A DNA stretch of 64,000 nt from Sipunculus nudus (taxonomy: Eukaryota > Annelida > Sipuncula > Golfingiida > Sipunculidae): contig CM049307.1 of the NCBI GenBank assembly GCA_026874595.1, forward strand, positions 28,928,362 to 28,992,361, given 5' to 3'. Position 1 is the first letter of the stretch. Each line of letters starts with the position of its first letter. The notes under the pieces are model-generated. The model had not been told where the DNA came from. It did no database searches and saw nothing but the letters and a program-made list of their open reading frames with translations. The translations under genes and the position numbers were made by a program. Shown one piece after another: positions 16,445 through 56,988 of this stretch.

Positions 16445-16449
16445 AATCA

Positions 16450-22700: not shown

Positions 22701-25700
22701 TCCAGGTACAGTGTACCTGCTGACACCACCGCTCATAGGGCTTGCTTTTAGTTAGATAAACCACGGTGAAGACTGAACACTGCACACTGAAGTTACCAGA
22801 ACGAATCACAGAACCAGTATATATTGGCCAGCCACCAGGACTGTCATGCCCCATGCATAACACCACATGACCCATGCATGAGCAGCAGCTTCCAAAGAGG
22901 ATTTTGTTTGGTCCATCTTAGCTACAAGAGGGGGTCATTCTATACTGTTTCTAAATTGAAACAGTTTTAACTAGGGCCTGCATGGGCCTTTCAAAAACGA
23001 CTTTGTAAGCTTATTTTGCAAAAGGTTTAGGCACATCCTGACAATTTACGAAATTGGGTGCCCCCAAAAATTGTTGAACAGATTTTAGGGGGGGGGTGTA
23101 GCTGGCTTTAAGCTATGAACCATGGATTTCAGGTGTTACACATACTGTGTCAACAGAATGTTCACAGTGTACTGTAAAATTCATGAATTGGAGTTTTTAG
23201 GCTCTACTTTGATTACTGGTTTTGAATTTGCAGGTTGTATCTTATGGACTAGAGATTTCAGGTGTCACACTTCCTATGTCTAGAGAATATTCAAAGTGTA
23301 CTGCACAATTCATGAATTGGAGTTTTTAGGCTCTACTTTGATTACTGGTTTTGAATTTGCAGGTTGTATCTTATGGACTAGAGATTTCAGGTGTCACACT
23401 TCCTATGTCTAGAGAATATTCAAAGTGTACTGCACAATTCATGAATTGGAGTTTTTAGGCTCTACTTTGATTACTGGTTTTGAATTTGCAGGTTGTATCT
23501 TATGGACCAGAGATTTCAGGTGTCACACTTCCTATGTCTAGAGAATATTCAAAGTGTACCGCACAATTCATGAATTGGAGTGCTTAGGCTCTACTTTGAT
23601 TACTGGTTTTGAATTTGCAGGTTGTATCTTATGGACCAGAGATTTCAGGTGTCACACTTCCTATGTCTAGAGAATATTCAAAGTGTACTGCACAATTCAT
23701 GAATTGGAGTTTTTAGGCTCTACTTTGATTACTGGTTTTGAATTTGCAGGTTGTATCTTATGGACTAGAGATTTCAGGTGTCACACTTCCTATGTCTAGA
23801 GAATATTCAAAGTGTACTGCACAATTCATGAATTGGAGTTTTTAGGCTCTACTTTGATTACTGGTTTTGAATTTGCAGGTTGTATCTTATGGACTAGAGA
23901 TTTCAGGTGTCACACTTCCTATGTCTAGAGAATATTCAAAGTGTACTGCACAATTCATGAATTGGAGTTTTTAGGCTCTACTTTAATTACTGGTTTTGAA
24001 TTTGCAGGTTGTATCTTATGGATTAGAGATTTCAGGTGTCACACTTCCTATGTCCAGAGAATATTCAATGTTTACTGCACAATTCATGAATTGGAGTTTT
24101 TTGGCATTACCTTAATTGCTAGTTTTGAATTTTTAGGTTGTATCTTGCACCCAAAGGCCCTGGGGATCCACCATACCCTCAGAAACTGGCACACATCAAT
24201 GTGGTCCCTGCCTGCCAGGAAGCAGGAGGGTTTTTCTCATCTCCTAAATACAGCAACTTCAGCGAAACCGTCTCAGCATTCAATAGAGAACTTAGAATCA
24301 GACCACTCCAAGGTGAGCATGGATTGTGTCAGTCTGGCATTTTATTAGCATTTTCTGTAAAGACTGGTATATGAGTCAACCTGGTTCATCTAAAGTGACA
24401 TGTTCTGATATTACAAGGTTCCTAGATCAAAAGATTCAGGTTTATATATCTCCAGGCTTAATGAATTTTATCGAGGCTTTTTTAATTTTGCCAAATGCAA
24501 ACTCTCAATAAAAAGGGACATAATCAGGATCAATATTATGTCTGTTCTTTCACACTATCAGTTCAGTTTTGCTTTAAACACAGATTTGCCAGCAGAACCA
24601 TCCCAGCATGCACAGTCTCATTTCCTGGCATACAGCTGTTTTACACCTTGCAATGACTGTGTGTGTTGGTAAACATAGTCCATGTGTGACTGTTTACCAT
24701 AACAAGGCTGCGTGACCAGAGGTCTGATTAGAGGGGCAACACACGGTGTTTCATCCAGCGGGAACATGTATTATATTTTTTGGCCAAGTCAGTCAGGGCA
24801 TCCAATGAGTCCTGATTGACACCTGTTGTGGCTCCACGTTGCAAACAGCCCCACACACTGTGTTTATGTTGACACCTGCAATTGCGTCCGGTCCACTGTT
24901 TTTAACACTCGTTTACAGGAGAAAGTAAACAGTTTCAAGGCAGTATTTTGACAGGTACAGATTTATTATAGCGGCATAAAATATAGGTAGTTAGGCCAAA
25001 AAAAAAAGGTATGGTTCTCGGGCACTGCACGCGCCACCTACAGTCATGTTTACCTGAAAGACATCCAAGCTAAAATTCAACACATCTCACTCTATTTCCC
25101 CTTACCACTCAATCAATGCCTCACTTCACCCATACCACTCTGATTTTGGCGGATACATGTAGTCGCTTGATGACTACCTGTATTCTCGTATTGTAATGTA
25201 GTCAGTCTGTGTGATAATTTAAGAGTTTCAGCAATTTTGAGGAATAAGTACACATTTGTGGTTATATTTAAGACTAACTGCTTCTCATTGATACACTTTT
25301 AATTAATTCCAGAGACACAAAAACTTCCTATTCTATTATCTAACTGAACTACAGTGGAACCCCGCCTTACGACCACCCCACAATTGCGACCACCCCCACA
25401 ATAACGACCACCTTACTTGGTCCCAAATATTCGATCCATGTAATTTAGAGTTTCACAATTACGGCCACCCCCAAATTACGACCACTTTGGTCAGTCCCCA
25501 AGGTGGTCGTAATTGTAGGGTTCCACTGTACATGTAATAGCAAATTCAAAGTTACTATTTCAGAAAACATTACTGTAAATAGTTGTGATTGGAATCAATT
25601 AAATAACCAGGTTTTGCACTATGATATAATTTCAGGGTCTGTGTTAAACATAGAAACTCAGGAGATGAAGCTCCACCATGGAAACAGTATAGCAGATCCG

Positions 25701-28700
25701 GACCGGGCTATATGGACAGAACAACAGTATACTTGTTTCCTGTATGTAATACGTGTTTTCTATGTGGTGGGACCTCCAGCATTTGAAGAGATTGGTAATT
25801 ATTGTTATTACCTTATCCAAGGAGACAATGTTTTCTTCACTGTTTGTCATTTTTTTTAGTTTTTGTTTGTCAATTGGTTTACTTGTTGATTTGTTTGTTG
25901 ATCTTTTAGCTCAGCTGACTGAAAGTCATCTTCAGGAGCTATAGCAATCACTCTTTGTCCATCGTCAGGTTGTCTGGCCGTCCAGCCGTCCTTTAACAGG
26001 GCACAAATCTTTACTGTTAGATCCTGAAATGTCTCACTGTACATTCAGGGAGTTCCATTAATAATCTCCTTCAAAACCTGAAGTAAGGTCTCTGTTACCA
26101 ATATCCTTTGAGCTATGGGCCTCATAAAAACCCCCAAAAATAATTTAAAATTTGATACAAAAATTCCAGTATCCGAATAACTAATGCACTGATGGCCATT
26201 ATTCTTTGCATGCTTATTAATTATGGAGTGTTTCATCAGTTCCTGCAGACTGGTGGCGCCACCTGTATGTTTTCTTATTTATTTCTCTGTTTGAGACCTT
26301 CAAATGAAATGGACGTCTATTAACAAGGCACAAATTGTACGCTTTGAACCTAGAATCTTCTAACTTCACATCCACAGAGGTAAATTAAAAATCTCCTTTG
26401 GAAACCTGAAATTAAGTCTCTGTTTTCCATATCCTCCAAGCTGTGTACATAGCTCATATTTACCCCCAAAAATAATTAAAAATTTGATACAAAAGCTCTA
26501 GTATCTGAATAACTAATGCATTGATTGCCATGATATTTTGCAGACATTTTGACCATGGATTGTTTTATCTGTTCCTTCAGACTGGTGGCACAACATGGAT
26601 TTTCTAAAAAAAATGTACGCATTTTATTCAATTTTTGAGATCTTCAAATGAAGCAGTCATATCTTAACATGGCACACTCAAATTGTCGGTGTTGGACCTA
26701 GAATCTTCTAACTTGACATCCAGGGAGGTCCATGAAAAGTTTTCATGGAAACCTGAAATTAAGTCTCTGTTACCCATATCCTCCAAGTCAAATGGCTTGT
26801 ATATATCCCCCAGAATAATTAAAAATTTGTTACAAAAGCTCCAGTATCTGAATAAGTAATGCATTGAATGTCATGATTTTTATGCCCCTGCCACAAAGTG
26901 GCCGGGGCATATAGTTTTATCCATGTCCGTCATTCCGAAATCAAACAGTTGTACGGACTTTTTTTCGCAATGCCTGCAGATATTGGCCTGATTTTTGGTG
27001 TGTGGGCAGATATAGACCAGTTACAGATCGAGTTCGCGTTTCGTCCCGGTTGACCTACTTTTGACTGTTTTACGGCTCCTAAACTTAGAAAATTTCATGA
27101 AAAATAGAAATATTCATGACAGATACACATGTACAGACTTTTTTTCGCAATGCCTGCAGATATTGGCCTGATTTTTGGTGTGTGAGCATATATAGACCAG
27201 TTACAGATCGAGTTGGCGTTTTGTCCTGGTTGACCTACTTTTGACGGTTTTACGCCTCCTGAACATAGAAAATTTCATGAAAAATATGAAATTTCATGAC
27301 AAATACACATGTACGGACTTTTTTTCGCAGTGCCTGCAGATATTGGCCTGATTTTTGGTGTGTGGACAGATATAGACCAGTTACAGATGGAGTTCACGTT
27401 TCGTCCCGGTTGACCTACTTGTGACCGTTTTATGGCTCCTAAACTTAGAAATTTTCATGAAAAATAGAAATATTCATGACAGATACACATGTACGGACTT
27501 TTTTTTCGCAATGCCTGCAGATATTGGCCTGATTTTTGGTGTGTGGGCAGATATAGACCAGTTACAGATCGAGTTCTCGTGTCGTCCTGGTTGACCTACT
27601 TTTGACCGTTTTACGGCTCCTAAACTTAGAAAATTTCATGAAAAATAGAAATTTCATGACAGATACACATGTACAGACTTTTTTTCGCAATGCCTGCAGA
27701 TATTGGCCTAATTTTTGGTGTGTGGGCAGATATAGACCAGTTACAGATGGAGTTTGCGTTTTGTCCCGGTTGACCTACTTTTGACGGCTCCTGAACATAT
27801 AAAATTTCATGAAAAATATGAAATTTCATGACAAATACACATGTACGGACTTTATTTTCGCAATGCCTGCAGATATTGGCCTGATTTTTGGTGTGTCGGC
27901 AGATATTGACCAGTTACAGATGGAGTTCGCATTTCATCCCAGTTGACCTACTTTTGACTGTTTTACGGCTCCTGAACATAGAAAATTTCATGTAAAATAT
28001 ATATTTTCATGACAAATACACTTGTACAGTTTTTTCTTCACAATACCTGCAGATATTGGCCTGATTTTTGGTGTGTGGGCAGATAATGACCAGTTACAGA
28101 TCAAGTTCACGTTTTGTCCCAGTTGACCTATTTTTTACTGTTTGACGGTGCTCTAACATAGAAAATTTCATAAAAAGGTGCACATGTATGGACTTTTTTC
28201 GCAGTGCCTGCAGATACGGGCCTGTTTTTTGGTGTGTAGGCAGATAATGACCAGTTACAGATCGAGTTCTTGTTTTGTCTCAGTTGACCTACTTTTGACC
28301 ATTTGACTGCTCCTGAACATAGAAAGTTTCATTTAAAAATATAAATTTTCATAACAAATGCATATGTACTGACTTTTTTCCTCAATGCCTGCAGATACCA
28401 ACCCTGATTTTTTTTGTGTGGGCAGATAATGACAGTTACAGATCGAGTTTGCGTTTCATCCCGGTTGACCTACTTTTGATTGTTTTACGGCTCCTAAACA
28501 TAGAAAATTTCATGAAAGACAGAAATTTTTATGGAAAATGCACATGTATGGACTTTTTTTCACAATGCCTGCATATACTGGCATGATTTTTGGTGTGTTG
28601 CTTGATAATGACCCGTTACAGATCGAGTTTGCACATTGCCCTTGTTGACCTACTTTTGACCATACGACACCTCCTGAACTTAAAAAATTTTCCAAATTTT

Positions 28701-31700
28701 ACAAATGTTTCTAATATACCCAAGGCGGGGGCATTCGTGTCGTTCCGACACATCTAGTTTTACATGTATATTGATCATGGGGAGTTTTTTAGTGCCTGCA
28801 GACTGATGGAACCAACTGTATTTTTTTAAATTTTTTCGCATTTTTATGTTTATTTTTGAGAACTTCAGATGAAGCGGTCTCCCATTAACAGGGCAGAAAT
28901 TGTAAGTGTTGAACCTATAGAGAATCTTCTAACTTGACATCCTGAGTGTTCCATGAAAAATCTCCAGAAATTAAGTCATGGTGACCTATACTGTATTTTG
29001 CAAATTAAGGGAGAAAACATGATTTTTAAGCACACGGTGAGTCAAATGGGGCTCAATTGTGTCCATATGGCCAACTAAAACCCTCGTACGCGACTTTCAG
29101 GGAGGTCCCTAAAAATCTACTTGGAAACGGGAAATGTCACTCAGACTATTTTCTACGAGCTGTGTGAAAGAAAACAAATGGTAGTAGCTGCATGTAGATT
29201 AAGGTTACTGTAACCGATATCTAAGGGCAATTGACGAAATCCTTAATTTTGAGCACTCTGAGACTCTTTTGGCCCATTGTTCAAGGCTCCTTGAATTCAG
29301 CTGAGCATCATGGCTAATTGGCCACTTGTTTTATTCCTACCACAATTAAAAAAAATTGTTTCAGATCAGTTACACCCCAGTGAGAACAAAAGCATACAAA
29401 GTCAATTACTAGACCAAAAAACCCCTGTTAAGGTGGATGTTAAGTCTAAAATGTCAGTCTCATTAGACTTTAAACTTTGCCTTCCTGGTCTTTTGGGGCT
29501 GTTCCTTCTTGTAGCTTTTCTTAGCTCCCTGGGAAGTGTACAGCCTAAGCAGTCACAATAGGTGCTAGAAGGTTATATGTTCTACATTTGCCTGCCTCCA
29601 TGGACCAATACCCATTCACTCGTGGGTTGACAGAGTGCACTCTTGTGGTAAAATCTTTGGCTGGGAGTTTTATTAATTAGCAAAGACAGTGGTCAGAACA
29701 GGACTTGAACCCACAACCTTGCAGTCACAAGTCCAGCTTCCCACCCATTACATCACCACACTCCACTAACAGGCTATGCACCTATCCTCTAAACAAATGA
29801 TAATACTAATGTATGAGCTGGAGGACTAAATAAATGTGGATGTGACAGAGCTGTAGCCTTACCAACTTAGCATGCATGGGTGCAGGTTTTGTGTAAATGA
29901 CACGTTTTATACCAGATGACCAACACAGGAAAAATTCCTGCTTAAAAGCTTACATTTTTATATTGGTATTTACTCTTTGGGGCATTGTTCCTGGTATTAT
30001 TTTAACCTTGAGCATGTTCCCATTTGATGTTGATACTTGCAGGCTGTGTGGACTTTGTGCCAGGTATTATCAAAGAAGGAGGGATATTCTCGTTACCGGA
30101 GTATGATCCTTTTTCTGCCCTGGTAGACAGAGCTCACATGTGGATGCAACAGAATCCAGGACTACGGATTACTAACATACAGTCTGTCAACTACAGGACA
30201 CACAGTAAGTCTGTCAACTACAGGACACAGAGTCTGTCAACTACAGGACACACAGTAAGTCTGTCAACTACAGGACACAGAGTCTGTCAACTACAGGACA
30301 CACAGTAAGTCTGTCAACTACAGGACACACAGTAAGTCTGTCAACTACAGGAGACAGAGTCTGTCAACTACAGGACTCACAGTAAGTCTGTCAACTACAG
30401 GAGACAGAGTCTGTCAACAACAGGACACACAGTAAGTCCGTCAACTACAGGAGACAGAGTCTGTCAACTACAGGACACACAGTAAGTCTGTCAACTACAG
30501 GAGACAGAGTCTGTCAACTACAGGACTTACAGTAAGTCTGTCAACTACAGGAGACAGGGTCTGTCAACAACAGGACACACAGTAAGTCTAACAACTATAG
30601 GACACACAGTAAATCTTTAAACTACAGGACACACAGTAAATCTGTCAACTACAGGACACATAGTAAGCCTGTCAACTACAGGACCCACAGTAAGCCTGTC
30701 CACTACAGGACACATAGAAAATCTGTCAACTACAGGACACACAGTAAGTCTGTCAGTTACAGGACACACAGTAAAACTCAGGCTGTCAACTACAGGTCAC
30801 ACAGTAAGCCTGTCAACTACAGGACACACAGTAAGTCTGTGAGTAATAGGACACACAGTCTATCCACAGGACAACTATAGGCACACATGGAGGATTGTGA
30901 ATTTTTGTCTGTCAGTGTCTGTTGTTTGATGTGTGTTATAATCTTTGTTTATGGGTAATTGCATTAAAAATGAATGTGACTACTATATCTTCAGATGAGC
31001 ATGTCATAAAAGTTATTTTTTTTCAAATAGTTAAACATTTGAAGGATACTACTTGTTCCTTTAATATGATTAAATGGGAAAAGGGTTCAATTGTGAAAGT
31101 ACACCTTTGTCTTTCAAATCAGGATGATTAAGCATTTAAAATAACCAAGTTCTCTGCTTTCTTTCACATATTTGTGTTTGAAACTGCTTATGATTTTTTC
31201 ACACAGAGATGTCATTAATAATATTTCGCAGAAAGCAAGCGTTTTGACAGCCACGAATCCTTGTATAAACCATCCACTGGAGGGTACACAGTACTGCTGC
31301 GAGTGCTGAGAGTTTGTTACGTCATGACGATGGCTCCCAGGGCGAGTGTTATGCCCCCACCACCCATGCTGACATACAAGACCTTCGCAGCACAGCCACT
31401 GACCCAGTGCTGTGGCAGCCCTAGCTCATTTGAATCCTTACAGGAGATGATGATCAGGGTCCAGGAGTGGCTTCATTATAACACAGGTACTCATGTGACT
31501 GTTCTAGTTCTAAATGTTTCTGGTAGATGGCAGCAACCTAGGTGTAGGAAGGCCTGGAAATATGAATCTCGTTTTATGTGGTGAGACTTTGAAAACTGTG
31601 CCAACAATCTCCCCCCATTGGTACTTAACAAATGTTGATTATAATTTGCTCAGATATCTGGTTAGACCGGCCTGATACATTTTAAAATGTATAATAATTA

Positions 31701-32036
31701 TGGTAATCATATACCTTGAATGTGTACAGTTTATAAATAGAGTGTATACTGTATAAAGAGAGACTTTTTGATAGTTCCCTAAGGTATGTAAAATTATTAT
31801 ATGGTATGCTCGCATATATTTCAGGTGTTCGAGTTCTTGCAGTTGAGACAGTCCCTTTGCTGTTGTCGGGAAGCTCTTCATTGTGTGATTCTGAAAATGT
31901 GATGTCGGTGGATCTGAACAGAACCAGCTACTGGATGTTTGTTTTGCGTTTATACCTTGAAGGTCCGTGGTGCGATCCTCCAGGTCAGCAACCACGTAGA
32001 CCTCAGTCTTCATCTGGAGGCTGCACCGTATTGTAA
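19647..32036 (+). CDS. Gene A: four-repeat protein with CaaX-like C-terminus, 7 coding exons, complete
   Basis: Spliced CDS join(19647-19774, 20341-20505, 24137-24312, 25636-25794, 30043-30204, 31232-31486, 31825-32036) totals 1257 nt and encodes 418 residues plus stop. All introns are GT-AG and every phase fits. Four diverged internal repeats lie at about residues 5-104, 110-207, 210-302 and 304-400. Each has a 'GG-I/F-F-S-x-P-x-Y' block, a helix-like stretch ending in 'W-x-x-x-N/H-P' and a strand-like 'YVIRVFYV' block. The N-terminus contains PPPTY, a PPxY-type WW ligand. The C-terminus is proline/serine-rich and ends GGCTVL, a CaaX-like box with X = L, which would favour geranylgeranylation. 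There is no signal peptide or membrane segment, so a cytosolic or membrane-tethered protein is inferred. I do not recognise the family. Repeat 4 has lost the usual GG-x-F core (it reads QCCGSPSSF). A paralogue lies convergently downstream. Confidence 0.85.
20341..20505 (+). CDS. Gene A exon 2
   Basis: The acceptor is ttctttgcag|t. The first base completes GAT (Asp) with the 'ga' left by exon 1. It encodes ALINRANNWLSQHPN, then a CESLE step and the Y-I-R-A-L strand of repeat 1. The donor ctgag|gttagt leaves 'ag', which becomes AGG (Arg) with the first base of exon 3. Confidence 0.82.
20506..23099 (+). other. Gene A intron 2, part before the 129-bp array
   Basis: A fragment of repeat A lies at about 20550-20870 (tttttagctcagctgactat to gtatgacccacaggtccctt). 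A (TTATC)n microsatellite lies near 21271-21297. Stretches at 21900-22700 carry repeated 'aggaaactcctg...ggcccct' phrases and a poly-C run near 22675. No exon is supported. Confidence 0.5.
23100..24147 (+). repeat. 129-bp tandem array copying the gene A exon 3 acceptor
   Basis: About eight copies have a period of exactly 129 bp (the motif tcatgaattg recurs at 23181, 23310, 23439 and so on to 24084). Each unit contains gaatttgcag|gttgtatctt, the acceptor plus the first 10 bases of exon 3. The real exon follows the last copy. Most central copies are nearly identical, so the array is recent or homogenised. Splicing to an upper copy would meet an in-frame stop within about 5 codons in most units (cttatggactag). 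Confidence 0.9.
24137..24312 (+). CDS. Gene A exon 3
   Basis: The acceptor gaatttttag|g gives Arg-Leu-Tyr-Leu-Ala-Pro, closing repeat 1. The exon then opens repeat 2 with DPPYPQKLAHIN, the QEAGGFFSSPKYSNF core and its helix. The donor is ccaag|gtgagc, phase 1. The exon sits directly after a 129-bp tandem array whose units copy its acceptor and first 10 bases. Confidence 0.83.
25012..25188 (+). mobile_element. 3' fragment of the same Helitron-like family
   Basis: Only the last monomer and 3' end remain: gattttggcggatacatgta, a hairpin around gtagtcgcttgatgactac, and tattctcg with a mutated CTRR. It lies in gene A intron 3. Confidence 0.65.
25352..25528. mobile_element. 177-bp MITE with CAGTGGAACCC inverted repeats and TA duplication
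   Basis: The ends CAGTGGAACCCCGCC and gtagggttccactg are inverted repeats flanked on both sides by TA. The interior has alternating gaccacc and ggtggtcgt blocks that fold back. A TA target and CAGTGGAACC termini are typical of Tc1/mariner-pogo type MITEs. It lies in gene A intron 3, 107 bp before exon 4. Confidence 0.82.
25636..25794 (+). CDS. Gene A exon 4
   Basis: The acceptor is atttcag|gg. Gly-Ser-Val-Leu-Asn is followed by the IETQEMKL step, the DPDRAIWTE segment and FLYVIRVFYVVGPPAFEEI, the best-conserved strand of the family. The donor attg|gtaatt is phase 1. The equivalent exon of gene B (56824-56988) aligns along its whole length. Confidence 0.87.
25905..29330 (+). repeat. Dispersed repeat 'A', long copy in gene A intron 4
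   Basis: It starts ttttagctcagctgactgaa and ends cagctgagcatcatggctaa followed by ttggccacttg. It holds four ~300-bp internal blocks (each with ctctgttacccatatcctcc) and is interrupted by the hairpin-ended element at 26881-28757. Confidence 0.65.
26881..28757 (+). mobile_element. Second hairpin-ended element with ~180-bp tandem core
   Basis: The 5' end is a long hairpin (tatgcccctgccac, aaa, gtggccggggcata). About ten ~180-bp monomers follow, each with cgcaatgcctgcagatattg and ccagttacagatcgagtt. The 3' end is ggcgggggcattc, a perfect hairpin gtgtcgttccgacac, atCTAG and a T run. It interrupts an older repeat within gene A intron 4; the host resumes as acatgtatattgatcatggg. It is Helitron/Helentron-like by end structure, with no coding sequence. 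Confidence 0.72.
29545..29766 (-). mobile_element. tRNA-derived SINE-like sequence
   Basis: On the minus strand, ggtgatgtaatgggtggga (box A-like) is followed about 35 bases later by gtgggttcaagtcctg (box B), in tRNA order. A non-tRNA body of about 140 bp follows. The 3' end and target duplication are not resolved. It lies in gene A intron 4. Confidence 0.5.
30043..30204 (+). CDS. Gene A exon 5
   Basis: The acceptor is cttgcag|gc. It encodes the first half of repeat 3: CVDFVPGIIKEGGIFSLPEY, a helix with ALVDRAHMWMQQNPG, and ITNIQSVNYR. The donor aca|gtaagt is a perfect consensus, phase 1. The last ~24 coding bases and the donor are the founder unit of the minisatellite that follows. Confidence 0.84.
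30180..30870 (+). repeat. Minisatellite copying the gene A exon 5 donor
   Basis: Units of about 27 bp (ctgtcaactacaggacacac then agtaagt) alternate with about 23-bp variants lacking the GT donor (acaggagacagagt). The first unit is the coding end of exon 5 with its donor, and the rest lie in the intron. Many copies keep a perfect GTAAGT. Copies beyond about 30580 are more diverged. Confidence 0.9.
31232..31486 (+). CDS. Gene A exon 6
   Basis: The acceptor atttcgcag|aa keeps phase (a + aa = Lys). It encodes the strand half of repeat 3 (VLLRVLRVCYV), a proline-rich linker (SVMPPPPMLTYKTF) and the first half of repeat 4 (helix MMIRVQEWLHYNT). The donor acacag|gtactc is phase 1. An earlier acceptor ending at about 31206 (cacacag) would break the frame and is rejected. 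Confidence 0.82.
31825..32036 (+). CDS. Gene A exon 7 (last coding)
   Basis: The acceptor is atatttcag|gt. It encodes VRVLAVETV, then YWMFVLRLYLEGPW, a Pro/Ser/Gln-rich tail and a C-terminal GGCTVL followed by TAA. The terminal Cys-Thr-Val-Leu fits Caa[L]. Confidence 0.85.
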
Positions 32037-35835: not shown

Positions 35836-35839
35836 GTTC

Positions 35840-35965
35840 TGTTGAGGGAAAGACTCTTTTAGTTCTGTAAAGGTCAAGGCCTTGGTAGTAGTTCACTAAA
35901 GGTCAAGGCCTTGGTAGTCAGTTCAGTAAAGGTAAAGGCCTTGGCAGTCCTTTAAAGTTCATGGC
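35840..35965 (+). repeat. Short tandem repeat of aaaggtcaaggccttgg
   Basis: Three to four imperfect copies of gttctgtaaaggtcaaggcc and ttggtagt, about 35 bp each. Confidence 0.65.
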
Positions 35966-45676: not shown

Positions 45677-45954
45677 AGCTACCAGTAGAATCTCAAGATA
45701 CCTGGTTATAAAATTAATACACTTGACATGCCAGCTTTGTATTCAAACAAAATGTATGAACTTTTCTCTTAAAGTGTCTGGTGATTATTGTTTTTAAATA
45801 ATGAAGCTGAAAAAAAATCATCACGGGAAATAGGTGGACAGGGGTACCGGAACAAAACATATAGAATACAAGGTAACAACATCATTGATAAATTGTAATA
45901 TCTAGATGGTAATAATAAATACTCAGGGGATCACATGCATTAGCGCCTGGCAGT

Positions 45955-46181
45955 CTACAGAATACGACAGCAGTCTGTGTCTCCCTGTTGTACTTGTGGC
46001 ATCGGGGGCAGAGCCTGGGGAGGAGGTTCCTGGCAGTACCCGTTCATGTAAACCCTCAGTACAAACAGCCACTGTTCATTACGATCACCAGGATTGTATG
46101 TGTATGTCTGTTCAGTGTTCCCCCACTGGTGACCAGAATACATGCGGATTGCCACCGTCTCAGCAGAAAGAACACGGATAT
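45955..46181 (-). CDS. Gene B last coding exon
   Basis: The acceptor ttccccag|at gives Asn-Ile-Arg-Val-Leu-Ser-Ala-Glu-Thr-Val, parallel to VRVLAVETV of gene A. It is followed by EQWLFVLRVYMNG, a proline-rich tail (EPPPQALPPMP) and a final CCRIL stop. Lengths and phase agree with gene A exon 7. Confidence 0.84.
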
Positions 46182-49100
46182 CTGGGGAATAAATTGCAAC
46201 ATGTCAGCCATAATATCCATATATAGAAATATGAAATGATGGAGGAAACAGTCATTCACATAAGTTATTCGATAATAAAATGACAACAGAACTGAACTAG
46301 AGGCCCATGGGCCATGACGCTCAGCTGAATTCAAGGAAAATTGAACAATGGGTAACATAACATCCCATAGTGCTCAAAATCTTGCATTTTGCCAACAGAC
46401 CTTAGATATAGGTTACAGTGAATAAGATAAACATAAAAGTGAATCCTACAGCCCCATAGCTGAGAGGATATGGGTAACAGAGACAAGGAGATTTTTCATG
46501 GGCCTCCCTGGTTGTCAAGTAAGAAGATTCTAGGTCCAATGGTTACGATTTGTGACTTGTTAACAGATGACTGCTTCTTTAAAGGTCTCAATAATAGAGA
46601 AAACAAAATGCATAAAAATTGGAAAAAAATACATGTGGCACCACCAGTTTGCAGGAACTGATGAAACACTCCAGGATCAATATGTATGCAAAAAATTATG
46701 GTGATCACAATCAATGCATTAGTTATTTAGATACTGGAGTTACAGGATGCTTAAATTAGTCATTTTGCCAAAATGGATTTTAAATTACAATATCAAAAAC
46801 AGCTGGAGCTATCATCACAAAATTTTATGCAGATGTTGGTCGAATGACTCATATTTGAAATTGAGGTATTCGTGGTGCCACCTGCATTAACCTTTTTTGT
46901 ACGAGGGTCATCAGTCAGTACATTAACCCATAATTTCTCAAGAAAAGCGGGAACTAGCATCCCCAAATTTTATGCAAAACTCTGTCACATATCAAATGTT
47001 GTGGGATTGAGCTTTCTGTGGTGCCACCTGCATTAACTGACATTTTATGGGGAAAAAACTAAAAAAAACTTTTAAAATCATCATCTCTGAATTCATTCAG
47101 CCAAATTGTTTAATGTTTCACAGAAAAATCCCAGAGACCAGCTCTCTCAAGTTTGTTCAAATGGTTTGGGTTTGATGAAATTTGTCTGAGTTACAAGAAT
47201 TTGATTTTTAGTCATTTGGTCAAGTAAGCATACTTACATAAAAATCTCAGAAACTATGGGAGCTAGCATCATCAAGTTTTGTGCAAATGTTGTTCACCTG
47301 ACTCCTATTTCAATTTGCAGTTTTTGTTGCGCCACGCACATAAACCTGTTTTTTTAGGGACAAAAACCTCATTATTTTTGCCTCTTTCAACTTAAAAATG
47401 TTTTATGATGAAACTGTTAAGCTGAATTGTTTAATTTTTCACACAAATTTTCCTAGGTTAGGGTTCTTTCAAGTGTATAAGAATAGATTCTGTTCATTGA
47501 ATTTTGATAGAGTCATAGATAGCTGAAGTTGGTCATGTGGCCATTAGTAAGCCTATTTCAAACTGAGGGCTGCAACAGTCTTCTTCTGGAAAACTTCTTT
47601 GACATAGCCCAAAAATGAATCTTAGGAGGCCTTTGTTCAAGTTTACTGAAATAATTTTTAACGGAATTATTGGACCTTTAACAATGAAAGGACCGCATTT
47701 TTTATAATTCTAAACTGTTTGATTAAATAAGCTTATGAATATGTTAGAGTGAAAAAAAGAATTGTAGCCAAAGTCTATCAGCATGTGTAAACAGATTTAC
47801 TAACAGGGCTAGATTGTGTCTGTATCTATAAATAGCTTGGCAGACTGCCAAGTATTTCAGATTTGGCAACAATCCAAAGGTCAGTCTGGATTTATTTATT
47901 GCCTTGGCAGACAGCCAACCGTTTAAGAGAATGCAACACGTCAAGGGTTCACTCAGTGCACCCAACTACAGGTCAAAAGTTCACTTAGTAAAGTAAGGTG
48001 AGGGGGCAACTGCTTTCTCACCTTAACCTGGTTAGCCCAGTGCAGCTGCATTGTTCATGTACATATTACATGTCTCTGAAAAGTAATGGTCCAGCATTGA
48101 AGCATTATACCTGGTGTGTATGCCACTGCACAGGTTCGCATTAGACCTGTAGGCCTTGATGGCATTACGAGCCCCATATCTCAGAGGATATGGGTAACAC
48201 AGTCCTAATTTCTTGTTTCCAAGTAGATTTTTCATGGACCTCTCTGGATGTCGGGTAAGAAGATTGGAGGTCCAATGGTTATGATTTGTGCCCTGTTAGC
48301 GAATGACAACTTCTTTGAAGGTCTCAAAAACAGAGAAAAAATGCATAAAAATTGGGAAAAAATACAGGTGGTGCCACAAGTTTGCAGGAACTGATGAAAC
48401 ACTCCAGGATCAATATGCATGCAAAAAAATCACATGTGGTGATCAATGCATTAGTTACTTAACCTAGTAAGAAACGGCAATTATAACATTGTTTCACAGC
48501 ACAAAATGTTATCCGATACAGCCCACTCTAGCACTGTACAAATTTTACATGACAATGACTTTATATGTAATGATTCTAATGTTATTCCTTAAATATAAGC
48601 ATTGTATTAAAGCTGTTTCATTTATTTTTATGTTTATAAAACATGTTAGTACTACGGGGACGTTGGTTGTAGTCTTTCACCACAGGGAATGATACTTCAA
48701 TTCCATAAGTATCAGGTGGTTGGGATGCCTCTGAAGTCTGGGTGCAACTTATATAATGGACTTTTCCTGAAACAAAACTTTAACGGCTATTCCCGAGGGG
48801 TATCCTAAAAACTTGTAATAAGGATTTGACTTCTACGACTTTTACAATATACTGAAGCCAGGACATGGCTCTCTTCATTGTCTTTGACATGGTTTCAAAA
48901 CTAACTTTTATTTACTGAAGCCAGGACATGGCTCTCATAGTCTGTGACATGGTCTGAATACTTACTTGTATTATACTGAAGCCAGGACATGGCTCTCTGC
49001 ATCATCTGAGACATGGTCTCAATACTTACTAGTATTATTTTGAAGCCAGAACATGGTCCTCTGCATGGTCCGTGACATGGTCTCAATACTTACTTGTATT

Positions 49101-52100
49101 ATACTGAAGCCAAGACATGGCTCTCTGCATCGTCTGTGACATGGTCTCAAACTCTGGTACTGTGAACATTCCACCCTGTGTCAGCTGTACTGGGCAGAAT
49201 GTTTTATATGTAAGAATCGGAGCTGGTGCAGCTGGAGCTCCCCCTGGTGATGTGGTGAAACAAACACGCAAGATCCTAACAAAATATGTCCTCATTTCCC
49301 CATGTTCCCGAAACAATGATCGTTGTGAGTCCAAGCAGCCTCCACCTACAAAACATGCCATAATTAGTTTAAAACTACAGTCTAACTGGCACTGGAAAGA
49401 GTTCCACAGGTCTAAGCTGGACCTAGGCAACATTAAATAATGTAATTTCAAAATGACTTTTCAGTTTTTTTAAAGCAAGGGTTATCATGCGCAGGTTAAT
49501 GTTACAGAACTGAATGGGAACACCCCATTTAGACAACAAAAGTAACAATTCTCTCATATCTAGATCTTTAAGATATCTGTAAATTAAAAAGAAAATAAGC
49601 TTCAATGCAGTTACTATATATAGCGGACACCTCTAAAAAGTGGACAGCTCTGCCAAATCTAAGGAGTGGCCATATTATAGAGGTAACACTGTATGTTACA
49701 ATCTGTAAACTTACTCCATGTTCCTTTAAGTTTATAGTCAATGGACTGTATATTGGTGACATTTATGGATGGGTTTTGCTGAATCCACTGTCTTGCCTTG
49801 TCCACCAATGTATGGAAGGGTGCAAACTCTGGATGAGACAATATACCTCCCTCTCTCAGCTGATCAGGTAAGAAATCAGCAGCACCTTCAAAAGAAAACA
49901 TAATATCTCTGAATGAAACATTAATACCCCATTCTGTTAGCCGATCAGGTATGATATCAGAAGCACCTTCAATAGAAAACATAACTCTGAATGAAACATT
50001 AGTACCTCATTCTGTTAGCCTATCAGGTATGAAACCAGGAGCACTTTCAATAGAAAACATATCTCTGAATGAAACATTAATACCTCATTTTGTTAGTCGA
50101 TCAGGTATGAAATCAAGAGCACCTTCAATAGAAAGTGTATCTCTGAATGAAACATTAGTACCTCATTCTGTTAGCCTATCAGGTATGAAACCAGGAGCAC
50201 TTTCAATAGAAAACATCTCTGAATGAAACATTAATACCTCATTTTGTTAGTGGATCAGGTATGAAATCAAGAGCACCTTCAATAGAAAGTGTATCTCTGA
50301 ATGAAACATTAATACCCCATTCTGTTAGCTGATCAGGTATAATATCAGTAGCACCTTCAATAGAAAACATAGAGAACATTAATACCCCATTCTGTTAGTC
50401 GATCAGGTAAGAAATTAGCAGCACCTTCAAAAGAAAACATAATATCTCTGAATGAAACATTAATACCCCATTCTGTTAGTTGATTAAGTATGAAATCAAG
50501 GGCACCTTCAAAAGAAAAAATATATATGAATGAAACATTATTACCCCATCGTGTTGGCCAATAAGGTATGAAATCAGGAGCACCTTCAAAAGAAAACATC
50601 TTTGAATGAAACATTAATACCCAATTCTGTTAGCCGATCAGGTATGAAATCAAGAGCACCTTCACTAGAAAACATATCAGGTATGAAATCAGGAGCACCT
50701 TCAAAAGAAAACATATCTCTGAATGAAACATTAATACCCCATTCTGTTAGCCGATCAGGTATGAAATCAAGAGCACCTTCACTAGAAAACATATCTGTAA
50801 ATGACACATGATTACCCCATCGTGTTGGCCGATAAGGTATGAAATCAGGAGCACCTTCAAAAGAAAACATATCTTTGAATGAAACATTAATACCCCATTC
50901 TGTTGGCTGATCAGGTATGAAATCAGGAGCACTTTCAATAGAAAACATATCTCTCAATGAAACATTAATACCTCATTCTGTTAGCTGATCAGGTATGAAA
51001 TCAGGAGCACCTTCAAAAGAAAACATATCTCTGAATGAAACATTAATTAATACCTCATTCTGTTAGCTGATCAGGTATGAAATCAGGAGCACCTTCACTA
51101 GAAAGCATATCTCTGAATGAAACATTAATACCTCATTCTGTTAGCCAATCAGGTATGAAATCAGGAGCACCTTTAAAAGAAAACATATCTCTGAATGAAA
51201 CATTAATTAATACCTCATTATGTTAGCTGATCAGGTATGAAATCAGGAGCACCTTCAAAAGAAAACATATCTCTGAATAAAACATTAATTAATACCTCAT
51301 TCTGTTAGCCAATCAGGTATGAAATCAGGAGCACCTTCAAAAGAAAACATATCTCTGAATGAAACATTAATTAATACCTCATTCTGTTAGCCAATCAGGT
51401 ATGAAATCAGGAGCACCTTCAAAAGAAAACATATCTCTGAATAAAACATTAATTAATACCTCATTCTGTTAGCCAATCAGGTATGAAATCAGGAGCACCT
51501 TTAAAAGAAAACATATCTCTGAATAAAACATTAATTAATACCTCATTCTGTTAGCCAATCAGGTATGAAATCAGGAGCACCTTCATAAGAAAACATATCT
51601 CTGAATGAAACATTAATTAATACCTCATTCTGTTAGCCAATCAGGTATGAAATCAGGAGCACCTTCAAAAGAAAACATATCTCTGAATAAAACATTAATT
51701 AATACCTCATTCTGTTAGCCAATCAGGTATGAAATCAGGAGCACCTTCAAAAGAAAACATATCTCTGAATAAAACATTAATTAATACCTCATTCTGTTAG
51801 CCAATCAGGTATGAAATCAGGAGCACCTTCAAAAGAAAACATATCTCGGAATGAAACATTAATTAATACCTCATTCTGTTAGGTGATCAGGTATGAAATC
51901 AGGAGCACCTTCACTAGAAAGCATATCTCTGAATGAAACATTAATTAATACCTCATTATGTTAGCTGATCAGATATGCCAGGAGCACCTTTAAAAGAAAA
52001 CATATCTCAGAATGAAACATTAATTAATACCTCATTCTGTTAGCCAATCAGGTATGAAATCAGGAGCACCTTTAAAAGAAAACATATCTCTGAATGAAAC

Positions 52101-55100
52101 ATTAATTAATACCTCATTATGTTAGCTGATCAGATATGCCAGGAGCACCTTTAAAAGAAAACATATCTCGGAATGAAACATTAATTAATACCTCATTCTG
52201 TTAGCCAATCAGGTATGAAATCAGGAGCACCTTCACTAGAAAGCATATCTCTGAATGAAACATTAATTAATACCTCATTATGTTAGCTGATCAGATATGC
52301 CAGGAGCACCTTTAAAAGAAAACATATCTCAGAATGAAACATTAATTAATACCTCATTAAGTTAGCTGATCAGGTATGAAATCAGGAGCACCTTTAAAAG
52401 AAAACATATCTCTGAATGAAACATTAATTAATACCTCATTATGTTAGCTGATCAGATATGCCAGGAGCACCTTTAAAAGAAAACATATCTCGGAATGAAA
52501 CATTAATTAATACCTCATTCTGTTAGCCAATCAGGTATGAAATCAGGAGCACCTTTAAAAGAAAACATATCTCTAAATGAAACATTAATTAATACCTCAT
52601 TATGTTAGCTGATCAGATATGCCAGGAGCACCTTTAAAAGAAAACATATCTCTGAATGAAACATTAATACCTCATTCTGTTAGCCGATCAGGTATGAAAT
52701 CAGGAGCACCTTTAAAAGAAAACATATCTCTGAATGAAACATTAATTAATACCTCATTATGTTAGCTGATCAGGTATGAAATCAGGAGCACCTTCACTAG
52801 AAAGCATATCTCGGAATGAAACATTAATTAATACCTCATTCTGTAAGCCGATCAGGTATGAAATCAGGAGCACCTTTAAAAGAAAACATATCTCTGAATG
52901 AAACATTAATTAATACCTCATTCTGTTAGCTGATCAGATATGCCAGGAGCACTTTCAATAGAAAACATATCTCTGAATGAAACATCAATTAATACCTCAT
53001 TTTGTTACCTGATCAGGTATGAAATCAAGAGCACCTTCAAAAGAAAACATATATATGAATGAAACATTATTACCCCATCGTGTTGGCCAATAAGGTATGA
53101 AATCAGGAGCACCTTCAAAAGAAAACATCTTTGAATGAAACATTAATACCCCATTCTGTTAGCCGATCAGGTATGAAATCAAGAGCACCTTCACTAGAAA
53201 ACATATCTCTGAATGAAACATTAATACCTCATTCTGTTAGCCGATCAGGTAAGAAATCAGGAGCACCTACAAAAGAAAACATATCTCTGAATGAAACATT
53301 AATACCCCATTCTGTTAGTCAATCAGGTATGAAATCAAAGGCACATTCATTAGAAAGCATATCTCTGAATGAAACATTAATACCTCATTCTGTTGGCTGA
53401 TCAGGTATGAAATCAGGAGCACTTTCAATAGAAAACATATCTCTGAATGAAACATTAATTAATACCTCATTCTGTTAGCCAATCAGGTATGAAATCAGGA
53501 GCACCTTCAAAAGAAAACATATCTCTGAATGAAACATTAATACCCCATTCTGTTAGCCGATCAGGTATGAAATCAAGAGCACCTTCACTAGAAAACATAT
53601 CTGTAAATGAAACATGATTACCCCATCGTGTTGGCCGATAAGGTATGAAATCAGGAGCACCTTCAAAAGAAAACATATCTTTGAATGAAACATTAATACC
53701 CCATTCTGTTGGCTGATCAGGTATGAAATCAGGAGCACTTTCAATAGAAAACATATCTCTCAATGAAACATTAATACCTCATTCTGTTAACCGATCAGGT
53801 ATGAAATCAGGAGCACCTTCAAAAGAAAACATATCTCTGAATAAAACATTAATTAATACCTCATTCTGTTAGCTGATCAGGTATGAAATCAGGAGCACCT
53901 TCACTAGAAAGCATATCTCTGAATGAAACATTAATACCTCATTCTGTTGGCTGATCAGGTATGAAATCAGGAGCACTTTCAATAGAAAACATATCTCTCA
54001 ATGAAACATTAATACCTCATTCTGTTAACCGATCAGGTATGAAATCAGGAGCACCTTCAAAAGAAAACATATCTCTGAATAAAACATTAATTAATACCTC
54101 ATTCTGTTAGCTGATCAGGTATGAAATCAGGAGCACCTTCACTAGAAAGCATATCTCTGAATGAAACATTTATACCCCATTCTGTTGGCTGATCAGGTAT
54201 GAAATCAGGAGCACTTTCAATAGAAAACATATCTCTCAATGAAACATTAATACCTCATTCTGTTAACCGATCAGGTATGAAATCAGGAGCACCTTCAAAA
54301 GAAAACATATCTCTGAATAAAACATTAATTAATACCTCATTCTGTTAGCTGATCAGGTATGAAATCAGGAGCACCTTCACTAGAAAGCATATCTCTGAAT
54401 GAAACATTAATACCTCATTCTGTTAGCCAATCAGGTATGAAATCAGGAGCACCTTCAAAAGAAAACATATCTCTGAATGAAACATTAATTAATACCTCAT
54501 TCTGTTAGCTGATCAGGTATGAAATCAGGAGCACCTTCACTAGAAAGCATATCTCTGAATGAAACATTAATACCTCATTCTGTTAGCCAATCAGGTATGA
54601 AATCAGGAGCACCTTCAAAAGAAAACATATCTCTGAATGAAACATTAATTAATACCTCATTATGTTAGCTGATCAGGTATGAAATCAGGAGCACCTTCAC
54701 TAGAAAGCATGTCTCTGAATGAAACATTAATACCTCATTCTGTTAGCCAATCAGGTATGAAATCAGGAGCACCTTTAAAAGAAAACATATCTCTGAATGA
54801 AACATTAATTAATACCTCATTCTGTTAGCTGATCAGATATGCCAGGAGCACCTTTAAAAGAAAACATATCTCTGAATGAAACATTAATTAATACCTCATT
54901 CTGTTAGCTGATCAGGTATGAAATCAGGAGCACCTTCACTAGAAAGCATATCTCTGAATGAAACATTAATTAATACCTCATTCTGTTAGCCAATCAGGTA
55001 TGAAATCAGGAGCACCTTCAAAAGAAAACATATCTCTGAATGAAACATTAATTAATACCTCATTCTGTTAGCTGATCAGGTATGAAATCAGGAGCACCTT

Positions 55101-56988
55101 CACTAGAATGCATATCTCTGAATGAAACATTAATACCTCATTCTGTTAGCCAATCAGGTATGAAATCAGGAGCACCTTTAAAAGAAAACATATCTCGGAA
55201 TGAAACATTAATGAATACCTCATTCTGTAAGCCGATCAGGTATGAAATCAGGAGCACCTTCAAAAGAAAACATATCTCTGAATGAAACATTAATTAATAC
55301 CTCATTATGTTAGCTGATCAGATATGCCAGGAGCACCTTTAAAAGAAAACATATCTCGGAATGAAACATTAATTTATACCTCATTCTGTTAGCCGATCAG
55401 GTATGAAATCAGGAGCACCTTTAAAAGAAAACATATCTCTGAATGAAACATTAATTAATACCTCATTCTGTTAGCTGATCAGATATGCCAGGAGCACCTT
55501 TAAAAGAAAACATATCTCTGAATGAAACATCAATTAATACCTCATTTTGTTACCTGATCAGGTATGAAATCAAGAGCACCTTCAATAGAAAGCATATCTC
55601 TGAATGAAACATTAATACCTCATTCTGTTAGCCGATCAGGTATGAAATCAGGAGCACCTTCAAAACAAGTTCACATAAACCATAGAGAGCAACTTTCCCA
55701 TCACTCCCATCAGCTGAGTAATCAGTTAAAATAAATCTAATACCTGTCCTTATATCACATGCATATACAAGCCCACTTTGACACACCTCAAATGGTTAAA
55801 ACAAGATGTGGTCAGACAATGGTCCATTAGAGGGCCCTGCATTTCTGGTAGTACTGGACTAGTTTACATACAGGTAAAAAGTTTAGTTTATAGTTCAAAA
55901 ATATGACAAACAGAAACAGGTTTTTATCAATATGCATGAGAGAACAAAAATTCTACGGGTTCAAATCATATTAAAGAAGATATGGTTGAAATAATGTGTG
56001 CAATACGAAATCATCTTTTGTTCTCTGGCAGCCATATTGGATATTTGGCGGGTGTGTATTGTGATGGGGATTGAGCCCTTGAAGGTACCAATCATCCCTG
56101 TGAATATTTAAAAGATCTGGTGTGTTCTTGTTGATATAATGCACGCGAAAATCACAGATTGTGCTCTGACAGCCATATTGAAATTCTAACAGGTCTGTAA
56201 TTCATTAGGTCTGGAGCCCTCATGGGTCCCAATGATCCCTGTGAATTTGAGAAGGATCAAAGTTTTTCTTTTTGAGATATCATGCACGAAAGAAAATCAC
56301 AGATTGTGCTCTGGTGGCCATTTTGGAATTCACATAGACCTGTATTTTGGTAGGGATGGAGTCCTTACAGGTACCAAGCATCCCTGTGAATATGAGAACG
56401 ACCAAGCTTTTTCTTTTTGAGATATCATATGCAAAAGAAAATCATGGACTGTGCTCTGGTGGCCGTATTAGAATTTCTACAGACCTGTAATTTGATATGT
56501 CTGCAGCCCTTATAAGTACCAATCATCCCTGTGAATTTGAGAAAGATCAAGCATGTTCTTGTTGTGACATCGAAAATCACTGATTGTGCTCTGGTGGCCA
56601 TACCCCAAGTCTGGTAGGTCTGTTATTCAATAGGTCTGGAGGGCTGACAGGTAAAAAATCATCCCTGTGAATTTGAGAAAGATTAAGCATGTTCTTGTTG
56701 AGACAAGGTGCGCAAAAGGAAGTGTCACTGATGGACGGAGGGACACAGTGATCACTATAGGGTACCGCTACCCTAATTAAAACAGCATATGAATATATTG
56801 TGAAATAACAAAAGTCACCTTACCTATGTCCTGATAAGCAGGCGGCCCTGCCACATAGAATAGTCTGATTACATAGAGATAGTAGGTGTTGTGGTCCCCG
56901 TGCTCTGTCCAGTAACACTTGTCCGGGTCAACCTCATTACCCCAGCTCTTAAACTTCATCTCCTGGGTTTCTATATTTGTTATGAATC
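45955..56988 (-). CDS. Gene B: paralogue of gene A, 3' four exons, 5' part not found
   Basis: Minus-strand exons 56988-56824, 49885-49715, 49345-49094 and 46181-45955 correspond one to one to gene A exons 4-7. All junctions are GT-AG and phase 1 as in gene A. They give 270 residues plus stop. The segment covers the end of repeat 2, repeat 3 and repeat 4, and repeat 4 keeps the GGMF-x-x-P-E-F core lost in gene A. The C-terminus is proline-rich and ends CCRIL, again Caa[L]. I found no counterparts of exons 1-3 between 57000 and 64000, so they lie outside the window or are lost. No frameshift or internal stop is seen, so the gene is probably functional. Confidence 0.82.
46293..48460. repeat. Repeat mosaic in the last intron of gene B
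   Basis: Fragments in order: repeat A (46293-46740, opening with catgacgctcagctga), repeat C (46760-47700), repeat B (47760-48165, with ttggcagactgcca and gacctgtaggccttg), then a further repeat A piece (48180-48460). None is coding. Confidence 0.55.
48461..48844. other. Gene B intron, no feature recognised
   Basis: Unique-looking AT-rich intron sequence up to the exon-6-donor tandem copies. Confidence 0.4.
48845..49150 (-). repeat. Tandem copies of the gene B exon 6 end and donor
   Basis: Five copies of a 61-65-bp unit begin near 48851, 48914, 48975, 49038 and 49103 (plus-strand motif actgaagcca). The last is the true exon end. Each copy covers roughly the last 50 coding bases (MQRAMSWLQYNT) plus the donor region. 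Some copies keep GTAAGT and others are mutated. Confidence 0.85.
49094..49345 (-). CDS. Gene B exon equivalent to A exon 6
   Basis: The acceptor is ttttgtag|gt and the donor atacaa|gtaagt. It encodes the strand half of repeat 3 (YFVRILRVCFT), a Pro/Ala linker (GGAPAAPAPILTYKTF) and the repeat 4 core TQGGMFTVPEFETM with helix MQRAMSWLQYNT. Its 3' end and donor are tandemly copied just downstream in the intron (48845-49093). Confidence 0.84.
49715..49885 (-). CDS. Gene B exon equivalent to A exon 5
   Basis: The acceptor cttttgaag|gt completes a Gly codon. It encodes GAADFLPDQLREGGILSHPE, a helix with LVDKARQWIQQNPS and NVTNIQSIDYKLKGTW. The donor is atgga|gtaagt. The acceptor and first ~40 bases are the founder of the large 78/82-bp array upstream. 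The nearest array unit could act as an alternative acceptor at 49966, adding 27 codons in frame. Confidence 0.83.
49860..55665 (-). repeat. Large 78/82-bp satellite array copying the gene B exon 5 acceptor
   Basis: Roughly 70 units fill most of the 6.9-kb intron between 56823 and 49886. On the minus strand each unit is a pyrimidine-rich acceptor (ttttcttttgaag) followed by ~40 bp like the exon start (gtgctcctgatttcatacct). The 82-bp form has an extra TTAA making taattaat and stops; the 78-bp form is 26 open codons. Variants (cttcaaaag, ctttaaaag, cttcactag, and agatatgcc with a deletion) alternate in higher-order patterns. Confidence 0.93.
56020..56750 (-). repeat. Five-copy 134-145-bp tandem repeat in gene B intron
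   Basis: The motif gattgtgctctgg recurs at about 145, 145 and 134 bp, with catccctgtgaatttgagaa in each unit. It lies between the acceptor array and the exon at 56824 but does not contain the exon's donor. Confidence 0.75.
56824..56988 (-). CDS. Gene B exon equivalent to A exon 4
   Basis: The acceptor is ttcacag|ga and the donor gacatag|gtaagg on the minus strand. It encodes FITNIETQEMKFKSWGNEVD, a DPDKCYWTEHGDHNTYY segment, then YVIRLFYVAGPPAYQDI. It is two residues longer than its gene A counterpart. The incoming phase shows that an upstream exon must exist. Confidence 0.85.

Follow-up and report, generated by a model that had tools for sequence, protein, structure and literature searches.

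Genes and gene family

The window, by which we mean the whole stretch of 64,000 nucleotides that was analysed, has a G+C content of about 36% and belongs to an animal whose assembly comprises 1,426,538,692 bases (1.43 Gb) in 153 contigs and represents one genome and one haplotype. It contains the predicted gene A and, on the other strand, exons 7 to 4 of the predicted gene B (Table 1). The exon edges of these genes, and of the two further family genes C and D described below, are predicted boundaries obtained from the reading frame, the GT-AG sites and paralogy. When all of its exons are included, the model of gene B gives a protein of 473 amino acids counted from the first ATG. Genes A and B are paralogs; over the part of B that the window covers, their identity is 41% (111 of 271 columns). 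Six intron positions are common to A and B, so these positions are older than the arrays that now lie beside some of them.

By internal matches in sequence comparison, the protein of this family resembles a repeat of a single domain. Pfam returned no match for A, for the window part of B or for three single-frame relatives, and PDB returned none for a 270-aa part of B. Outside the window the family includes two more intron-bearing genes, C, which is located on a different large contig, and D, which is located about 0.3 Mb from A, as well as relatives with a single open frame. A candidate third paralog near 9.7 kb of the window was discarded; it was a weak tblastn match (E 0.061), and reading the region led us to attribute it to chance. 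No RNA family reached the gathering threshold in the window, and a program that uses the bacterial code predicted no tRNA or tmRNA there.

Table 1. Coordinates of the predicted genes, the junction arrays and two intronic arrays away from junctions. Positions are those of the window unless stated otherwise.
Feature	Position	Strand	Description
Gene A	19647..32036	+	7 coding exons, uninterrupted spliced frame, 418 aa
Gene A coding exons	19647-19774, 20341-20505, 24137-24312, 25636-25794, 30043-30204, 31232-31486, 31825-32036	+	Frame-consistent model
Gene B exons 7-4	45955-46181, 49094-49345, 49715-49885, 56824-56988	-	Frame-consistent model
Gene B exons 1-3	outside window, ~G000:C2:28995090-28997800	-	Gene model
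Array 1, A exon-3 acceptor (A3)	23125..24146	+	TRF: 129 bp x 7.9; 8 copies aligned; predicted junction 24136|24137
Array 2, A exon-5 donor (A5)	30181..30859	+	TRF: 27/23-bp units; 25 copies aligned; predicted junction 30204|30205
Array 3, B exon-6 donor (B6)	48848..49150	-	TRF: 64 bp x 4.8; 61-65-bp unit, 5 copies; predicted junction 49093|49094
Array 4, B exon-5 acceptor (B5)	49825..55665	-	TRF: 78/82-bp unit; 74 copies aligned; predicted junction 49885|49886
Gene C exon-4 acceptor array (C4)	family gene outside window		45 bp x 20
Gene D exon-6 donor array (D6)	family gene outside window		47 bp, 9 copies seen; array continues past the end of the locus
Non-junction intronic array	26950..28660	.	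180-bp unit, dispersed repeat; 24-mer with 12,435 exact genome matches
Non-junction intronic array	56073..56703	.	145-bp unit, dispersed repeat; 24-mer with 130 exact genome matches

Tandem arrays at splice junctions

The initial annotation had described four splice junctions of A and B as the founders of tandem arrays that run into the adjacent intron, and a run of Tandem Repeats Finder (TRF) recovered all four at the places named. We refer to each array by its gene and exon (Table 1). The number of visible internal junctions had been given as about ten; the window really has 19 of them, 12 in A and 7 in B. When an 80-mer was taken across each of these junctions, four had further copies spanning the junction and 15 were single-copy. 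Each unit does contain the splice site, as had been claimed, but the accompanying figure of 10 to 50 exon bases did not hold, as the exon part amounts to about 10 bases in A3, about 24 in A5, about 57 in B6 and about 59 in B5, where it is joined to about 19-23 intron bases. In A5 the 27-bp units are mixed with a 23-bp form that lacks GTAAGT. The predicted splice site falls in the exon-proximal unit in all four window arrays, and the copy that fits the protein always adjoins the body of the exon, being the last copy at acceptors and the first at donors. Intron 2 of A (20506-24136, compared with 23125-24146 for its array) is mostly non-array sequence, and the remaining array-bearing introns also exceed their arrays in length. 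The largest array is B5, with 74 copies over 5.8 kb.

In its exon part each unit matches an exon conserved across the paralogs, and for this reason the exon is the founder of the array and not the reverse. On the predicted boundaries, the founder includes the real exon edge in five of the six arrays, while D6 has only about 5 exon bases. We also searched the 1.43 Gb genome with short words from the units and found 6 matches for a 20-mer of A3, 7 for a 25-mer of A5 and 33 for a 20-mer of B5, every one of them in its own array. By contrast, two strong arrays of these genes that lie away from junctions (26950..28660 and 56073..56703) are members of dispersed repeats, with 12,435 and 130 exact matches of a 24-mer in the genome. 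A mobile or introner-like repeat was rejected as the source of the arrays because the words of A3, A5 and B5 are confined in this way and the units of the window arrays and of C4 are not alike. Comparison of the A3, A5, B5, B6 and C4 units with one another (10 pairs) detected no likeness beyond chance, the lowest value being 29 of 300 shuffles. At each of the A3, A5, B5 and B6 junctions, the matching junction of the other paralog is single-copy. The claim that the four window arrays are independent is thus upheld by the lack of significant likeness among their units and by their single-copy counterparts. Five comparisons of the D6 unit with the other units gave 6 of 300 shuffles for A5 and 14 of 300 for B6, the rest being unremarkable; this weak likeness perhaps comes about through the donor consensus. 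B6 and D6 occupy the equivalent exon position in two paralogs, and this position together with the weak likeness of D6 means that full independence cannot be claimed for the arrays concerned.

Placement of the arrays compared with chance

We re-placed at random, in 20,000 trials, the 13 TRF arrays that are located in the gene spans (19647-32036 and 45955-64000, the latter being gene B with intron 3). The test is post hoc and the window was picked for its pattern, so the p values that follow are a guide only: with an exon overlap of at most 62 bases, the expectation is 0.72 junction arrays and 4 are observed (p = 0.0036, or 0.36% of trials), and with an overlap of at most 100 bases 0.99 are expected against the same 4 (p = 0.011, or 1.06% of trials). 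When only the eight arrays with a score of at least 380 are re-placed, at least four junction arrays occur in 0.07% of trials under the 62-base limit and in 0.39% under the 100-base limit. For the six strong arrays not repeated elsewhere in the window, a set that leaves out 60805-61111 and 63477-63763 because further copies of these are present in the window, the corresponding values are 0 of 20,000 trials and 0.08%. The statement in the initial annotation that such placement is hard to put down to chance is therefore borne out to the extent that the placement exceeds a simple chance model, in a window picked for the pattern.

Recurrence in the gene family and in control families

Junction arrays recur in the family beyond the window, at the exon-4 acceptor of gene C and at the exon-6 donor of gene D. 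These are 2 of the 18 junctions read in the two genes (11 in C and 7 in D), with D exons 3, 5 and 7 and C exon 1 (not found) left uncounted. Apart from a plain AT run near the C6 donor, no extra copies were seen in the sequence read around the remaining 16 junctions of C and D or around the five junctions of B exons 1-3; for C2, C6, C7, D4 and D6 this sequence extended only about 400 bases to each side. Over the whole family, 6 of 42 junctions carry arrays, three of them among 21 acceptors and three among 21 donors. The weakest case is D6, in which only about 5 exon bases are common to the copies, and this array may merely abut the donor.

As controls we used 20 kinesin exons (of 126 matches, among the best 27) with flanks of about 450 bases, 17 chaperonin exons (of 63 matches, with the 12 long-frame loci L037-L048 and also L051 left out of 30 loci) with flanks of about 1500 bases, and, flanked by about 210 bases, 12 P450 exons taken from the shorter of 95 matches. 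Each control edge is the end of a profile match and only approximates the junction; in four cases it is the end of a domain. None of the 98 edges in the kinesin, chaperonin and P450 exons carries an array that contains the splice site, and the upper 95% bound is about 3%, calculated for 0 of 94. Two kinesin near-misses were not counted as junction arrays: in L081 a 17-bp array stops before the acceptor, and in L074 an array of 38 bp x 2.1 begins just past GTAAGT.

A Fisher test over the whole family (6 of 42 junctions, compared with 0 of 98 edges in the controls) gives p = 0.0006, a value that includes the window picked for the pattern. For C and D only, which were not picked for the pattern, the test of 2 of 18 against 0 of 98 gives p = 0.023. 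If D6 is removed this becomes 1 of 18 (p = 0.16) or 1 of 17 (p = 0.15) against 0 of 98, and if the two near-misses are entered as control hits, p is 0.11 for 2 of 18 against 2 of 98 and 0.009 for 6 of 42 against 2 of 98. With its small control set, the replication in C and D is suggestive and not strong. The absence of such arrays at all 98 control edges means that junction arrays are not common at junctions in general. Kinesins and chaperonins are highly conserved, and in view of this conservation it is a fair reading that the array-bearing family is under weaker constraint than they are.

Splice signals and divergence of the copies

The AG is present in 7 of 7 non-authentic copies of A3, 64 of 73 of B5 and 17 of 19 of C4, and the GT is present in 18 of 24 non-authentic copies of A5, 3 of 4 of B6 and 7 of 8 of D6; the six misses in A5 and the single miss in B6 are gaps in the local alignment. 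Among the B5 copies without AG, 8 of 73 read AA and 1 reads AT. Conservation of the AG columns in the B5 array does not exceed that of its other columns (entropy 0.30 vs 0.23). Judged by eye, copies often come as close to the splice consensus as the authentic site does, or closer, as in A3, where TTTGCAG is found in the copies and TTTTTAG at the authentic site.

Mean pairwise identity of the units is 0.87-0.94 in five arrays. In A3 the middle six copies are 0.985 alike and are 0.89-0.90 identical to either end copy. This difference is the usual mark of a homogenised interior and is clear in A3; homogenisation of the interior is not clear in A5, B5, B6 or C4. Similarity to the authentic copy in C4 is 0.95 for the nearest six copies, 0.85 for the middle four and 0.89 for the farthest nine. 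A gradient of similarity outward from the exon was considered for C4 and rejected, as no copies beyond the nearest six are set apart and the rank correlation has p = 0.06. One reading frame of the C4 array runs open through 294 codons, and the codon changes of the array comprise 20 synonymous and 44 non-synonymous ones (one of them to a stop), as compared with 30, 97 and 8 stops for all single changes. The idea that this array is coding sequence was rejected on these codon changes, which look close to neutral, and on a stop ahead of the last two acceptor copies. If exon 4 of C has the same reading as its counterparts in A and B, this in-frame TAA implies that the acceptor in use is one of those two copies.

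The bases that follow the acceptor showed a further pattern. In the family, GT comes directly after 6 of 21 acceptors, and these six include every acceptor that bears an array (A3, B5 and C4), so that arrays are present at 3 of 6 AG|GT acceptors and at 0 of 15 others (p = 0.015, in a post hoc comparison with three arrays). The D6 junction also has AG|GT, which is absent at A5 and B6. In C4, 12 of the 19 non-authentic copies read TCAG|GTAAG, a sequence that is close to the recursive-splice consensus.

Proposed origin of the arrays

We consider it likely that the six arrays are minisatellites founded at splice junctions, of the kind known in amphioxus as 'mirages', and that they have grown neutrally on the intron side. 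Each of them would have started with a small tandem duplication of a segment straddling the splice junction. Such a duplication would be tolerated if the spliceosome keeps to the exon-proximal copy, leaving the mRNA unaltered and turning the other copies into intron, and the exon-proximal site would presumably be the only one in use. Growth would then proceed toward the intron, probably by slippage or unequal exchange, with the exon-side edge held in place by selection on the coding exon, and the copies and their splice signals would drift neutrally. The arrays recur in four paralogs and mostly at differing junctions. Taken by itself, the neutral account leaves two things unexplained, namely the preference for junctions over the interiors of introns and the bias toward this family compared with the 98 control edges.

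A reading that could complement the neutral account, which we hold tentatively and regard as unlikely, is that the AG|GT copies have a dual use as acceptor and donor and make the arrays self-healing. If an upstream copy were misused as the acceptor, its GT would be spliced to a later AG and the normal mRNA would be restored; AG|GT junctions would as a consequence tolerate any number of copies, and acceptor arrays would be found there. The location of all three acceptor arrays at AG|GT (p = 0.015) and the likeness of 12 of 19 C4 copies to the recursive-splice consensus agree with this, as do the human UBC arrays of AGGT, which are spliced, and the 8.4-fold enrichment of tandem repeats reported for such introns in excerpts of PMC10809524. 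It is opposed by the copies of A3 and B5, whose GT appears by eye to be a weak donor (GTTGTA and GTGCTC), by the B5 copies with AA or AT instead of AG, and by the post hoc nature of a test on three arrays. Two of the three donor arrays (A5 and B6) are also without AG|GT; however, the first donor suffices in a donor array, so that donor arrays need no such repair. The broader proposal that AG|GT acceptors are safe harbours, in which duplications pile up and introns gain kilobases, with several independent ongoing cases in this family, is in our opinion quite unlikely. The shared mechanism at exon edges that the initial annotation had suggested might take the form of junction-specific mutation, in which tandem duplication strikes preferentially at exon edges, for example through short direct repeats shared by the splice consensus and the exon. 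This is possible, although we lean against it. The excess of junction arrays in the re-placement test would be expected, and the joint of the duplication pairs an exonic donor-like stretch with the real donor (in B6 TACCAGAGTTTGAG with TACAAGTAAGTATTGAG, and similarly in A5), which makes a microhomology seed possible in the two cases of donor arrays in the window; this likeness comes from the alignment of two arrays only. The 0 of 98 control edges (95% bound of about 3%) speak against a high rate for junctions generally. A special mechanism of duplication at exon edges may or may not be at work, and by the evidence of the control edges it is uncommon among junctions overall.

Selection for decoy splice sites had also been suggested, the copies being kept to tune splicing efficiency or the choice of isoform. 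Most copies do retain their AG or GT, and two of the downstream repeat units of human IFI6 serve as splice donors (excerpts of PMC4526556). Since the core columns of the largest array are not more conserved than its other columns (64 of 73 copies with AG) and the copies are often as good as the authentic site or better by eye, the evidence runs against this suggestion, and the C4 codon changes (20 synonymous, 44 non-synonymous) are without clear coding constraint; we judge selection on decoys to be improbable. We assign a similarly low probability to chance, that is, to repeat-rich introns in which some arrays happen to touch exons. The window was chosen by its reader for the pattern, the merged TRF arrays occupy about one fifth of it, and the replication is small, with p = 0.15-0.16 without D6 and 0.11 with the near-misses counted; chance is opposed by the re-placement test (p = 0.0036 to 0.011) and by the comparison of C and D with the controls (p = 0.023). 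An artefact of assembly or collapse is very improbable. Assembly of long arrays with near-identical units is difficult and the copy numbers may be off, but the units have diverged (0.87-0.94 in five arrays) and the arrays are located in the interior of contigs of 84 and 98 Mb.

On the neutral 'mirage' account, each array can be seen as a natural experiment in which up to 74 near-identical candidate splice sites are offered and one should be chosen, and the arrays raise the question of how the correct site gets chosen among good copies. Six arrays in four related genes provide tests of the rules of splice-site choice and of the neutral growth of introns, as well as of the harmlessness of duplications that cross AG|GT and can be spliced away. 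For gene predictors, such arrays present dozens of false exon edges.

Comparison with known systems

Arrays of this kind are already known from the amphioxus mirages, the donor minisatellite of IFI6 and intron gain by duplication across a boundary. Compared with these, what is new is their scale, their recurrence as six arrays in one family, the control set and the link of the acceptor arrays to AG|GT. In excerpts of PMC3087553 and PMC3902484, mirages are described as minisatellite-like repeats of exon-intron boundaries, on the donor or the acceptor side, with units of about 10-160 bases. They are reported there for Adh3, the globins BflGb6 and BflGb9 and TnC, with similar repeats in PGBD5; AG or GT is present in many copies, not in all, and the interior is homogenised. 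The present arrays resemble them, as far as these excerpts describe them, in having units composed of the splice site with exon and intron bases (in D6 about 5 exon bases), in affecting both donor and acceptor boundaries, and in keeping the AG or GT in many copies and not in all, except that A3 keeps it in all. They differ in size, the largest having 74 copies and extending over 5.8 kb, and in forming six arrays in four members of a family. The assembly itself, at 1.43 Gb and with a window of about 36% G+C, does not fit Branchiostoma, whose genome has about 0.5 Gb. According to the same excerpts, splicing and length instability were examined in amphioxus, whereas the present arrays are known from one genome sequence.

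Human IFI6 (G1P3, 6-16) has a minisatellite that holds multiple copies of its donor site (Turri 1995, as related in excerpts of PMC4526556) and is similar in this respect to the present donor arrays. It differs from the present arrays, on that account, in being one gene with the repeat on the donor side and in using the downstream copies as donors, which gives rise to isoforms. Dual-specific AGGT sites in a tandem array are spliced in human UBC (excerpts of PMC10809524), and the A3, B5, C4 and D6 units are like this array in carrying AG|GT, while the A5 and B6 units are without it. In UBC, as described there, a coding monomer serves as the unit and the intron comprises a multiple of it, while the present arrays form part of larger introns. 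For the RdRp gene of potato, excerpts of PMC4974935 describe the gain of an intron by tandem duplication over an intron-exon boundary, which is similar to the present arrays in that the duplication crosses the boundary and the splice signals are copied. A new intron arose in that case, whereas the intron positions shared by A and B predate the arrays.

Reading frame through the gene C array and arrays beside other junctions

The array of 20 units of 45 bp over the exon-4 acceptor of gene C comprises 294 codons open in the exon-4 frame, which are read as 15-amino-acid repeats. None of the 19 units read contained an indel, and the single TAA lies upstream of the final two copies of the acceptor. 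Other tandem arrays were found near junctions without containing the splice site: among the kinesin control genes, one stops short of an acceptor and another begins just past a donor. The 35-bp array of gene D, which has 4.8 copies within the locus and continues beyond it, lies approximately 230 bases 5' of the exon-4 acceptor and is not at the junction.

Protein family and single-frame relatives

The proteins of genes A and B both end in a CaaX-like motif (CTVL and CRIL, respectively), which we take to be suggestive of prenylation; their family is without a Pfam match. Relatives with one uninterrupted frame of 391 to 440 amino acids are present at two loci, L035 and L034 (two in the latter), also without a Pfam match. 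The listed matches include an additional single-frame relative.

Location of the features
Feature	Position	Strand or contig
Gene C exon-4 acceptor array	L032 1767-2648	
Array before kinesin acceptor	L081 35-463	
Array after kinesin donor	L074 667-746	
Gene D 35-bp array	L090 1-169	
CaaX-like end, gene A	window 32019-32036	+
CaaX-like end, gene B	window 45955-45980	-
Single-frame A/B relative	L035 2321-3640	G000:C4
Single-frame A/B relative	L034 1232-2404	G000:C13
Single-frame A/B relative	L034 8449-9684	G000:C13
Additional single-frame relative	19939594	G000:C13
180-bp tandem repeat	window 26950-28660	
Chaperonin-locus array	L061 2047-3180	
Copies with GGTGGCGCCACC-like core	window 1263-2103, 10583-11706, 40906-41324, 63477-63822	
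Non-LTR retrotransposon	window 15500-18705	
547-aa GroEL-type frames		G000:C61, C62, C66, C72, C73, C75, C89 (two), C99

Dispersed repeats and composition of the assembly

The 180-bp tandem unit in the window belongs to a very abundant dispersed repeat, a 24-mer of which has 12,435 exact matches genome-wide; the chaperonin-locus array has the same period. Another dispersed family has several copies in the window, with tandem units of 126 to 280 bp around a GGTGGCGCCACC-like core, and the endonuclease and reverse transcriptase matches of the non-LTR retrotransposon are spread across three frames.

Nine intact GroEL-type frames with equal scores are all located on contigs numbered C61 and above, so some contigs of the assembly seem to be bacterial, derived either from a symbiont or from contaminating DNA. 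At least 25 of the 95 P450 matches span nearly the whole domain in a single frame, and thus many P450 genes seem to lack introns within it.
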